Origin: Pelagibacterales bacterium SAG-MED31
GTDB taxonomy: Bacteria; Pseudomonadota; Alphaproteobacteria; HIMB59; GCA-002718135
DNA: 41,592 nt
Direction of reading: 5' to 3'
Assembly (NCBI GenBank): GCA_014653715.1
Contig: JACWEB010000007.1
Location: 1 to 41,592, forward strand
The translations under genes were made by a program, and so were the position numbers. Shown one piece after another: positions 39,697 to 41,592 of this stretch. The first letter of the stretch is position 1, and each line of letters opens with the position of its first letter. The notes below the pieces were generated by a model that ran no database searches, had not been told where the DNA came from, and saw only the letters and a program-made list of their open reading frames with translations.

Positions 39697-40299
39697 CTAC
39701 TTAGATAATTTTATTTTATTTTCTGAACCATTCATCAACTTTTTTATATTTTCAAGGTGTTTTAGTGATATTATTAAAAATAAATAAAGCAAAAAAATAC
39801 CAACAAAATTATTCGGATTTATGAAAAAAAAATAGAGTGGAGCTACTAAAGATGCTGTCAATGAGCTTAGAGATGAGTATCTAGAAATACAAGCAACAAT
39901 AATCCAAGTTAATAAAAAATACAGTCCAATAAGGAAATTCAAACCAATTAAAAATCCAATATATGTAGCTACGCCTTTACCGCCTTTAAATTTTAACCAA
40001 ATAGGAAAAATATGACCAATTATTGCAAAGTGACATAGAAATATTGAATGCAAAGTATTAGTATCATAAAGAGAACTCAATATAATAAAAGGTAGAAGTC
40101 CTTTAGAAATATCTAAACAAAGTACTGCAAATGCCAAATATTTATTTCCGGTACGAAGAACGTTCGTTGCCCCTACATTACCTGAGCCAATATCTCTAAT
40201 ATCTCCATGTCCTAATAACTTTGTAAGTATTAATGCAAAAGGGATTGAACCAATAAGATAGAAGACAGTTATAAATAAAAAATTAGTAACTAAGGACAT
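39697..40299 (-). CDS. plsY: Glycerol-3-phosphate acyltransferase PlsY
   Basis: 200 residues with several membrane helices. It moves an acyl group from acyl phosphate to glycerol 3-phosphate, the first step of phospholipid synthesis. The three family blocks are GSIPFALIL, SGNVGATNVLRT, and FKGGKGVATYIGF. Start overlaps the pyrB end by 17 bases. The partner PlsX is not in the window. Downstream 66 bp lead to topA and contain a 14-base A/T palindrome at 39675-39688 and a TTGACG on the coding strand at 39667-39672 that might be part of a topA promoter. Confidence 0.95.
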   Translation of the reverse strand: MSLVTNFLFITVFYLIGSIPFALILTKLLGHGDIRDIGSGNVGATNVLRTGNKYLAFAVLCLDISKGLLPFIILSSLYDTNTLHSIFLCHFAIIGHIFPIWLKFKGGKGVATYIGFLIGLNFLIGLYFLLTWIIVACISRYSSLSSLTASLVAPLYFFFINPNNFVGIFLLYLFLIISLKHLENIKKLMNGSENKIKLSK

Positions 40300-41428
40300 T
40301 ATCTCTATTTTTAATTAGTATATCTAAACAAGCCATACGTATTGCAACACCCATTGCAACCTGTTCTTGAATCAAGCTTCTTGTAATATCATCTGCTAAC
40401 TTAGAGTCTATTTCAACTCCTCTATTCATTGGGCCTGGGTGCATCACAAAAGCATTTTTTTTTGCGTATTTGAGTTTATTATAATCTAATCCATATTTAT
40501 TAAAATAAGTCTTTTGATTTGGCATAATTTTTCCAACAATTCTCTCTTTTTGAATTCTTAGCATCATTACAATATTACAATTTTTAAGACCTTTTTTCAT
40601 ATCTGTATAAACTTCTACAGGAAGTTTGTTGATATTTTTTGGTAACCATTGTTTGGGGCCAATAACATTTATTTTTGCACCTAGTTTAGATAAGATGGTA
40701 ATATTAGATCTTGCAACTCGACTATGAAGAATATCACCACAAATAGCTATTTGTAATTTTGAAAAATTATTAAATCTATTCTTGATAGTTAGAGCATCTA
40801 AAAGGGCTTGAGTAGGGTGCTCATGACTTCCGTCACCTGCATTGATTACGCAAGCATCGACATTATTTGAAATTCTTTTACTAATACCTTCTTCTGGATG
40901 TCTTACTATTAAAACATCTGGATACATTGAATTAATAGTTGTCATAGTATCTAAAAGTGTTTCACCTTTATTTATAGAGCTATCTTTTACGGCAACATTG
41001 ATAAGATCCGCACCTAATCTTTTAGCAGCTACTTCAAAACTTGTACGTGTTCTTGTTGAGTCTTCAAAAAATAAATTAAAAATTGTTCTTCCTTCTAGTA
41101 TGTTAATTTTTTTAACTCTTTTTTTATTAAAATTAATAAATTTTTTTGCTTCATCTAAAATAAATTCTATTTCTTTTTTATTTAAATCAGCAGTTTCAAC
41201 TAGATGAATTTTTTTATATATATTATTTGATGTTTTTTTAATTTTGTCACTAATTCCAAATGAAGAATAGTTTTTTAAGGCTATTTTTTTTGCTTCCTTT
41301 AATATTTTTGAACCTGTTGATGAGCGAATAGCTCTCTTTTTTGGTAATTTTAATTTCATTTGCCAATATTGAGAATTTTCTCTTTTGTATAATTTAATAT
41401 GTCCAGACTCTAAAAATATTGATTTCAT
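40283..41428 (-). CDS. pyrB: Aspartate carbamoyltransferase with an N-terminal integrase-type DNA-binding extension
   Basis: 381 residues. From about residue 72 (KKIHLVETADL) it is a complete catalytic subunit, about 310 residues: carbamoyl-phosphate loop DSTRTRTSF, HPEEGISKR, DGSHEHPTQALLD, HSRVARSN, MLRIQKER and HPGPMNRGVEI. It makes carbamoyl aspartate in pyrimidine synthesis. Residues 8-58 are extra: HIKLYKRENSQYWQMKLKL, then RAIRSSTGSK and a helix KEAKKIALKNY. This beta-beta-beta-alpha pattern and the YKRxNSxxW / STG / EAxxIAL residues resemble the arm-binding N-terminal domain of tyrosine recombinases. No in-frame ATG, GTG or TTG occurs between the ATG at residue 23 and the start of the enzyme part, so the extension is normally translated unless a rare start is used. 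The usual next gene, pyrC, is absent. Confidence 0.93.
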   Translation of the reverse strand: MKSIFLESGHIKLYKRENSQYWQMKLKLPKKRAIRSSTGSKILKEAKKIALKNYSSFGISDKIKKTSNNIYKKIHLVETADLNKKEIEFILDEAKKFINFNKKRVKKINILEGRTIFNLFFEDSTRTRTSFEVAAKRLGADLINVAVKDSSINKGETLLDTMTTINSMYPDVLIVRHPEEGISKRISNNVDACVINAGDGSHEHPTQALLDALTIKNRFNNFSKLQIAICGDILHSRVARSNITILSKLGAKINVIGPKQWLPKNINKLPVEVYTDMKKGLKNCNIVMMLRIQKERIVGKIMPNQKTYFNKYGLDYNKLKYAKKNAFVMHPGPMNRGVEIDSKLADDITRSLIQEQVAMGVAIRMACLDILIKNRDNVLSY

Positions 41429-41455
41429 ATGTGTTAAAAATGTGTTGATATGTGT
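41429..41455 (-). repeat. Three ATGTGT repeats with helical spacing at the pyrB start
   Basis: On the + strand ATGTGT lies at 41429-41434, 41440-41445 and 41450-41455, spacing 11 and 10 bp; on the coding strand they are ACACAT and the first directly touches the pyrB ATG. There is no purine-rich ribosome-binding site. They fill the whole gap between ruvX and pyrB. Confidence 0.7.
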
Positions 41456-41487
41456 AAACTAATTTATAGAGTATTTCTACACATATC
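41447..41487. repeat. 10-bp perfect inverted repeat spanning the ruvX end
   Basis: GATATGTGTA at 41447-41456 and TACACATATC at 41478-41487 are exact reverse complements separated by 21 bases. The first arm contains the third ATGTGT repeat; the second lies in the ruvX C-terminal codons. No T-run follows directly on the coding strand, so a simple terminator is unlikely. Confidence 0.65.
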
Positions 41488-41592
41488 TAAATAACCTTGT
41501 AAAATATAAGCAGCTGATTGTTGGTCTAATTTTTTTTTAATTTTTGAAGAACTAAAATCAGATTTTCTTAATTCTTTAAATATAATATCGGA
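41464..41592 (-). CDS. ruvX: Putative pre-16S rRNA nuclease / Holliday junction resolvase-like RuvX (YqgF), C-terminal end
   Basis: The 42 codons at the window edge, read on the minus strand and ending at TAA 41464-41466, give SSSKIKKKLDQQSAAYILQ then GYLDM. The pattern K-K-x-L-D-x-x-A-A-x-I-L-Q-G-L-D is the conserved C-terminus of RuvX/YqgF, including its last active-site aspartate region. The gene continues beyond the window. ruvX-pyrB adjacency is common in alphaproteobacteria. Confidence 0.85.
   Translation of the reverse strand, partial: SDIIFKELRKSDFSSSKIKKKLDQQSAAYILQGYLDMCRNTL

Follow-up and report, generated by a model that had tools for sequence, protein, structure and literature searches.

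An integrase arm-type domain and direct repeats at an alphaproteobacterial pyrB gene: a candidate self-repressing aspartate carbamoyltransferase

INTRODUCTION

Why should a gene for aspartate carbamoyltransferase, pyrB, whose product acts early in pyrimidine synthesis, encode an additional N-terminal domain and be preceded by three phased copies of ATGTGT (ACACAT on the coding strand) that run up to its start codon? This question is raised by the window, i.e., the whole stretch of 41,592 nucleotides analyzed here, which is contig C59 of genome G000 (0.94 Mb, 54% complete). The initial annotation had offered two explanations: a remnant attP-type array captured together with the domain from a tyrosine recombinase gene, or an operator through which PyrB controls its own synthesis. 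Integrase arm domains are DNA binders, and known aspartate carbamoyltransferases are trimers.

Autoregulated integrases and self-repressing enzymes with DNA-binding domains, such as PutA (PMC8249747), are both already known. In prophages associated with tRNA genes, KplE1 among them, the int promoter overlaps the recombination region (attL), and for this reason the integrase reduces its own expression; the −10 box of KplE1 intS coincides in part with an arm site, and mutation of single IntS arm sites left repression in place (PMC2951348). PutA binds only the spacer between putA and putP and represses transcription of the put genes (PMC8249747).

RESULTS

The genes around the array are arranged on the minus strand in the order ruvX, pyrB, plsY, topA, where plsY and topA are putative names assigned by reading the sequence (Table 1). 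The ruvX fragment matched RuvX with 24.6 bits, under the cut-off of 29.2. The gap between ruvX and pyrB comprises 35 bp and ends, on the pyrB strand, with TTTACACATATCAACACATTTTTAACACAT directly before the ATG. The three ATGTGT copies, spaced by 11 and 10 bp on the plus strand, and their contact with the start codon were found as initially annotated. PyrB combines carbamoyltransferase domains with an arm-type N-terminal domain; Pfam matched the carbamoyltransferase domains only, from residue 75 on, and no catalytic recombinase domain. Among 17 representatives, chosen at a third-position identity under 85%, identity amounted to 83% for residues 7 to 55, 47% for linker residues 56 to 72, and 89% for residues 75 to 375. 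There was no tRNA gene in the window, no att core was recognized at the pyrB locus, and G000, a genome about half complete, gave no Phage_integrase match.

Table 1. Features at the ruvX-pyrB junction of the window
Feature	Position	Strand	Remarks
pyrB start codon ATG	41426-41428	-	
Repeat 1, outermost, core ACACAT	41450..41455	-	CACA at −26..−23 from pyrB ATG; 78/78 loci
Repeat 2, core ACACAT	41440..41445	-	CACA at −16..−13; 78/78 loci
Repeat 3, core ACACAT, touching pyrB ATG	41429..41434	-	CACA at −5..−2; 78/78 loci
Candidate −10 element TAAATT, overlapping ruvX stop codon	41461..41466	-	TTTACACA of repeat 1 follows after 2 nt; putative
PyrB residues 1-55, integrase arm-type DNA-binding domain (by homology)	41264..41428	-	
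PyrB residues 56-74, variable linker	41207..41263	-	
PyrB residues 75-381, aspartate carbamoyltransferase catalytic part	40286..41206	-	PF02729 + PF00185
ruvX 3′ end, upstream neighbor of pyrB, cut by window end	41464..41592	-	

A collection of 84,980 species contained 77 loci with an N-terminally extended pyrB (the search may omit entries from G000 itself or from a very near genome), which gives 78 loci with the window. According to their records, most derive from single-cell or metagenome assemblies of uncultured Alphaproteobacteria; G037, from the sister family, is a single contig of 1,410,127 bases. The pyrB gene is full length in 73 of the 78 loci, whereas it reaches the contig end in four and is frameshifted in one. 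In the latter (L027, G028:C7:66041-67172) the frameshift lies just after the arm domain and may be an assembly error or a true break. The CACA cores occupy the same three positions, beginning at −26, −16, and −5, in all 78 loci. In this count the choice of the start codon favored one preceded by ACAT, which hardly matters, since in 75 of the 77 loci the match start was itself that codon. Within the 17 representatives all 12 core sites were invariant, compared to none of the 68 fourfold columns of pyrB (Fisher p 1.7e-14, which is indicative only, as the sequences are related). Pairwise identity was 78% at the other 18 leader sites and 45% at the fourfold sites. The repeats of pyrB are thus under strong constraint.

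The exact three-copy pattern with zero mismatches occurs once in the window, and with up to three mismatches 0.02 matches are expected from shuffles of the window. A search of the genome for further ATGTGT arrays, suggested in the initial annotation, was performed with a longer pattern and up to three mismatches, and gave a single match in G000, at pyrB. In the genus, the whole array with up to three mismatches yielded 33 rows, one per genome, in 33 of 41 genomes, and by sequence all of these represent the pyrB array. A looser pattern was matched in 80 of 110 family genomes; 77 of the 87 rows were the pyrB array and 10 were not, and the reversed control gave 6 matches. A regulon was considered and rejected: paired sites of the form ACACAT-N4/5-ACACAT occurred only 11 times outside the pyrB array in the 110 family genomes compared to about 70 times for the reversed control, and a strict paired-site regulon is therefore not visible. 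The array is dedicated to pyrB, and there are no consistent sites at other genes.

The initial annotation had also pointed to a 10-bp inverted repeat that includes the outermost copy. It is present (GATATGTGTA, 41447-41456; TACACATATC, 41478-41487) and has a hairpin z of −3.0 in the window, its right arm falling in the last ruvX codons. Within the 60 bp before pyrB, each arm was found in 1 of 78 loci, namely the window's own, for which reason we rejected a function as operator or hairpin and assign it no role in the system. As the nearest relative, G006, lacks it, the inverted repeat is most likely accidental.

The ruvX-pyrB gap was compared between relatives with and without the extension, as the initial annotation had proposed. 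The repeats precede the extended pyrB in all 78 loci and are absent before all 10 unextended pyrB genes examined, namely nine from the sister family and that of G067, a member of another genus of the family; here, not even a relaxed repeat pair was found within 150 bp upstream (0/10). Five genomes that represent other genera of this family were fetched (G066, G069, G073, G095, and G128), and in each of them pyrB is extended and has ACACAT repeats running up to its ATG. The 10/11 spacing is kept in G073, and that of the other four is 11 bp; the outermost copy is degenerate in G066, G069, and G095. For G161, searches alone indicated both extension and repeats. In a FastTree analysis of pyrB, plsY, topA, and ruvX, G067 fell together with four genomes that bear the domain (support 0.97, or 0.96 when pyrB was left out), the sister of this group being a second domain-bearing clade; the exact place of G067 inside the group was weakly supported. 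Since the tree nests G067 among domain-bearing genomes, it probably lost both extension and repeats. The two elements are adjacent and one deletion could remove both, so that G067 provides no independent evidence of coupling.

These data bear on the idea that the array is a passive leader that was inherited with the domain and serves as an unstructured, ribosome-friendly sequence or as part of a promoter, with the domain being employed otherwise, e.g., in protein binding. The repeats do abut the AUG, the sequence is rich in AT and AC, and DNA binding by the domain is a prediction. Such a leader does not fit well with 12 invariant core positions amid leader positions of 78% and fourfold sites of 45% identity, with paired ACACAT sites that are rarer elsewhere than in the reversed control, or with the missing repeats at the 10 unextended genes, and we consider this explanation unlikely.

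A profile built from 18 PyrB domains was searched in 385 alphaproteobacterial genomes and matched 17 of them at E ≤ 0.01, two through pyrB itself (G000 and G065). In 13 of the other 15 genomes, reading of the translations identified the matches as N-termini of tyrosine recombinases, some of them in short frames; the two weak matches L298 and L302 were not tyrosine recombinases. The top integrase E values were 6.9e-8 (G296), 1.1e-7 (G487), and 1.6e-7 (G372), followed by 3.2e-7 (G484), 7.3e-7 (G261), and 5.5e-6 (G170); the leading integrases as a whole spanned 6.9e-8 to 3e-5. Of seven matched recombinases scanned with Pfam, five were above the integrase-family cut-off and two below. The best bacterial integrase scored 29 bits with the PyrB-domain profile, and nine viral integrase arms scored 37 to 45 bits, these viral integrases having been fetched through their catalytic part and not through the arm. 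Viral relatives were reached only through the integrase profile: domain queries gave nothing significant against viral contigs or plasmids (one chance match, E 8), nor did domain or integrase queries against phages, and neither Pfam nor PHROGs contained a family matching the window domain. Plasmid integrases were reached through a full-length query (25 records, of which 7 were fetched). Weak early domain matches to TrpB and photolyase were discarded as chance.

The AlphaFold2 (AF2) model of the domain (pLDDT about 94 for residues 1 to 50) has a beta-beta-beta-alpha topology (E11-15, E23-26, E34-37, H43-63), i.e., the three-stranded beta-sheet and C-terminal helix known from arm domains. Like the model, the P4-like integrase arm domains of HPI (3JTZ, 3RMP) and HAI7 (3JU0) have strands followed by a helix, and 55 to 59 residues could be overlaid with Z scores of 4.7 to 5.4 and 8 to 13% identity. 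In the VIA comparison, 3RMP (Z 5.4), 3JTZ (5.3), and 3JU0 (4.7) ranked with the better rows, as did an AP2 domain (5.3), unrelated folds scored equally, and the top row was an unrelated protein. Foldseek gave no row at an E value of 0.001 or better against the PDB and its best named viral integrase had an E value of 0.097; a profile search of the PDB found no significant sequence match. The model of full-length PyrB was poor (pLDDT 57) and was not used. We regard sequence homology, not the fold comparison, as decisive, and judged by the profile matches the PyrB extension shares ancestry with the arm domain at the N-terminus of tyrosine integrases from Alphaproteobacteria and viruses.

The family's own resident integrases were considered as donors and rejected, as their arms, which are mostly of another type, gave no significant match (hmmsearch not significant; hhalign E 0.26). 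Within the order, the search revealed no int gene whose arm is closely similar; the nearest was that of G109 with an E value of 1.3e-4. Two genus genomes carry integrase genes about 7 to 8 kb from pyrB (G003:C7 and G130:C13), with arms of another type. In the sister family, Phage_integrase matches were mostly 1e-36 or better and lay in XerC/D-like frames of 329 and 286 amino acids. The best matches in the own family were mostly about 1e-14 to 1e-28, many of them to one conserved frame of 365 amino acids, and some of its genomes, incomplete ones included, had no match. The dimer-resolution recombinase of the family may be unusual.

Direct repeats were also found upstream of int genes, in several loci between the tRNA end and int. 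L288 has three copies of CTTACACAGTTCTTACACACTTTTACACATG at 11 and 10 bp, and the repeats upstream of int are CTTACACACCACTTACACAT in L292, ATTACACATTCGCTACACAC in L293, and CTTACACAGCCCTTACACAT in L294. ARAGORN detected a tRNA gene in 8 of these 14 int loci (including L288, L292, and L293 and excluding L294) and in 9 of 12 other int loci. For counting, 67 integrases were reduced to 47 by removal of 18 near-duplicates (ungapped filter) and of 2 whose upstream sequence was short; an uncounted number of loci that lacked arm coverage or scored under 60 bits had already been left out. Within 300 bp upstream, no 5-mer recurred at a distance of 10 or 11 bp more often than ACACA, which did so in 15 of the 47 integrases, compared to a mean of 0.14 and a maximum of 2 in 500 sets of first-order Markov sequences. 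The distances between ACACA pairs peaked at 11 bp (15 pairs; the next distance had 3), and no TGTGT pair occurred at distances of up to 40 bp. After a gapped duplicate filter, the strict ACACA pair remained in 14 of 44 integrases (85% filter), 10 of 27 (60%), and 6 of 18 (45%), and a VCACA pair was found in 25 of 44. The strict pair was present in 8 of 13 integrases with an arm score of at least 20 bits and in 6 of 31 below that score; L296, L304, L312, L344, and L361 lacked it despite arms of at least 20 bits. That only 14 of 44 integrases have the strict pair, and that 5 of 13 with such arms do not, suggests that sites and arms drift. Same-order recombinases with XerC/D-like and other arm types, serving as control, showed no ACACA pair (0/44; 0/22 after the same filter).

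Among the closest viral relatives, the int genes L308, L311, L315 to L317, and L326 adjoin tRNA-Thr and have the pair directly before the int ATG, in a diverged form in L317 and L326. The int leader of L315 ends with TTATAGACTTTACACATATTTTACAC followed by ATGAAGAAA, that of L308 with GTTTTACACATATTTTACACA followed by ATGATAAAA, and the pyrB leader of G069 with ACATAATTTACACATATTTTACACAT followed by ATGAAAAAA. All three share TTTACACATATTTTACACA[T] at or next to the ATG, and the stretch identical with G069 pyrB measures 19 bp in L308 and 20 bp, running into the ATG, in L315. From this match at the ATG we conclude that the leader repeats, start codon, and arm domain of pyrB are most likely those of an int gene of this kind, whose 5′ end it carries. 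Like integrase arm sites, the pyrB array consists of direct repeats of the same motif in one orientation at 10 to 11 bp.

Alternatively, the array could be the operator of an unrelated regulator and its likeness to integrase arm sites a coincidence, given that AT-rich genomes frequently contain short motifs rich in AC, that other bacterial pyr regulators exist, and that 30 of the 44 integrases lack the strict ACACA pair. We consider such a coincidence highly improbable in view of the first rank of ACACA among the 5-mers before domain-sharing integrases, with its sharp 11-bp peak and single orientation, the 19 to 20 identical bp lying equally far from the ATG, and the lack of consistent sites at other genes.

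A scan for sigma-70-like promoters found none on the pyrB strand in the ruvX-pyrB gap, and we can therefore only infer the position of the pyrB promoter. Positions −38 to −33, the candidate −10 element, are conserved, in part because of the ruvX stop codon. AT-rich hexamers lie beside the array in viral int genes as well as in other genera; in the pyrB leaders that were compared they adjoin the first TTTACACA, and in the viral int L315 the hexamer TATAGA lies 1 nt before TTTACACA.

Control might instead be exerted on RNA, with the domain binding the G-poor ACACAU repeats of the pyrB leader and blocking the ribosome at the AUG. In each of the 78 loci there is direct contact between the last repeat and the start codon, the gap has no clear promoter, and pyrB follows so closely behind ruvX that the two may be cotranscribed. 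On the other hand, the similar repeats between tRNA and int genes presumably act as DNA, integrase arm domains bind DNA, with the title of entry 3RMP referring to attP recognition, and the spacing near the helical repeat fits DNA; we therefore give control on RNA only a small chance.

DISCUSSION

The reading we prefer, and hold to be likely, is that the 5′ end of an int gene, operator and arm domain together, was captured by pyrB, which now represses itself in the manner of many integrases. An integrase origin of domain and repeats is well supported by the sequence comparisons; binding of PyrB to the array and repression of pyrB are proposed by analogy with the known systems. The two options of the initial annotation, a captured arm-site array and a PyrB operator, thus appear to be both true. 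Capture of an attP-type array agrees with the homologous arm domain and with the ACACA repeats at 10 to 11 bp that many such integrases share; the notion of a remnant has to be given up insofar as it implies decay, since none of the 78 loci deviates in the cores.

In the proposed course of events, an ancestor of the family (order of HIMB59/AEGEAN-169) would have fused the 5′ end of a tyrosine integrase gene to pyrB, thereby capturing the arm-type domain along with the arm-type repeats (TTACACA, 10 to 11 bp) before the int start codon, and selection would have maintained both as a switch that needs no other part. PyrB would bind as an oligomer, probably a trimer, to the phased repeats via N-terminal domains on flexible linkers, would cover the promoter or 5′ leader and the start codon of pyrB, and would so repress pyrB and perhaps also the downstream plsY. 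This repression would set a ceiling on the level of the PyrB enzyme. The match of three repeats to a trimer, raised in the initial annotation, is still only suggestive: with the third copy degenerate in three of the five genomes from other genera, it is attractive and not required.

KplE1 intS resembles pyrB in that the arm sites lie next to the sequence that encodes the arm domain; at pyrB, in contrast, the putative regulator is a metabolic enzyme without a recombinase domain, and the window has no tRNA gene. PutA and other trigger enzymes share with PyrB the combination of an enzyme with a DNA-binding domain, assigned by homology in PyrB; they differ in enzyme and origin, PyrB's domain and operator appearing to be derived from a mobile element. 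Among the literature matches listed, from a search mostly outside subscription journals, no description of a fusion between an arm domain and pyrB was found. To our knowledge, a metabolic enzyme owning both halves of an integrase autoregulatory loop has not been described.

SAR11 bacteria are described as poor in canonical regulatory suites (PMC10308909). For a streamlined ocean lineage of the SAR11 type, the joint uptake of a protein and its target site from a mobile element may have been a single step to feedback control of a key pathway. The locus offers a concrete candidate protein-DNA pair, TTACACA and a domain of 55 residues, and arm domains could seed new transcription factors. More tentatively, and with somewhat less than even confidence, we suggest that the int 5′ end, in which promoter-proximal arm sites are combined with the arm domain, is a portable and self-contained autorepression cassette that bacteria graft onto ordinary genes, pyrB of this family being one case.

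Genome G098 encodes two PilM-PilN fusion proteins with an arm-like N-terminus (L381, 240-2351, and L382, 168-2303, both on the minus strand; E 3.9e-6 and 1.7e-4 with a mixed arm profile). Upstream of them, TCTAACACA occurs in four copies in L382 (2438-2571; 0.04 expected) and in five in L381, arranged as pairs 20 to 21 bp apart plus one single copy in one locus. Judged by these sequences, the fusions are a possible second case of the cassette; their host is uncertain because G098 is a metagenome-assembled genome with 4% contamination. In G109, of the same order, the tRNA-Leu-adjacent recombinase L383 has an arm (E 1.3e-4) like the N-termini of the PilM-PilN fusions, with ACACA sites around it.
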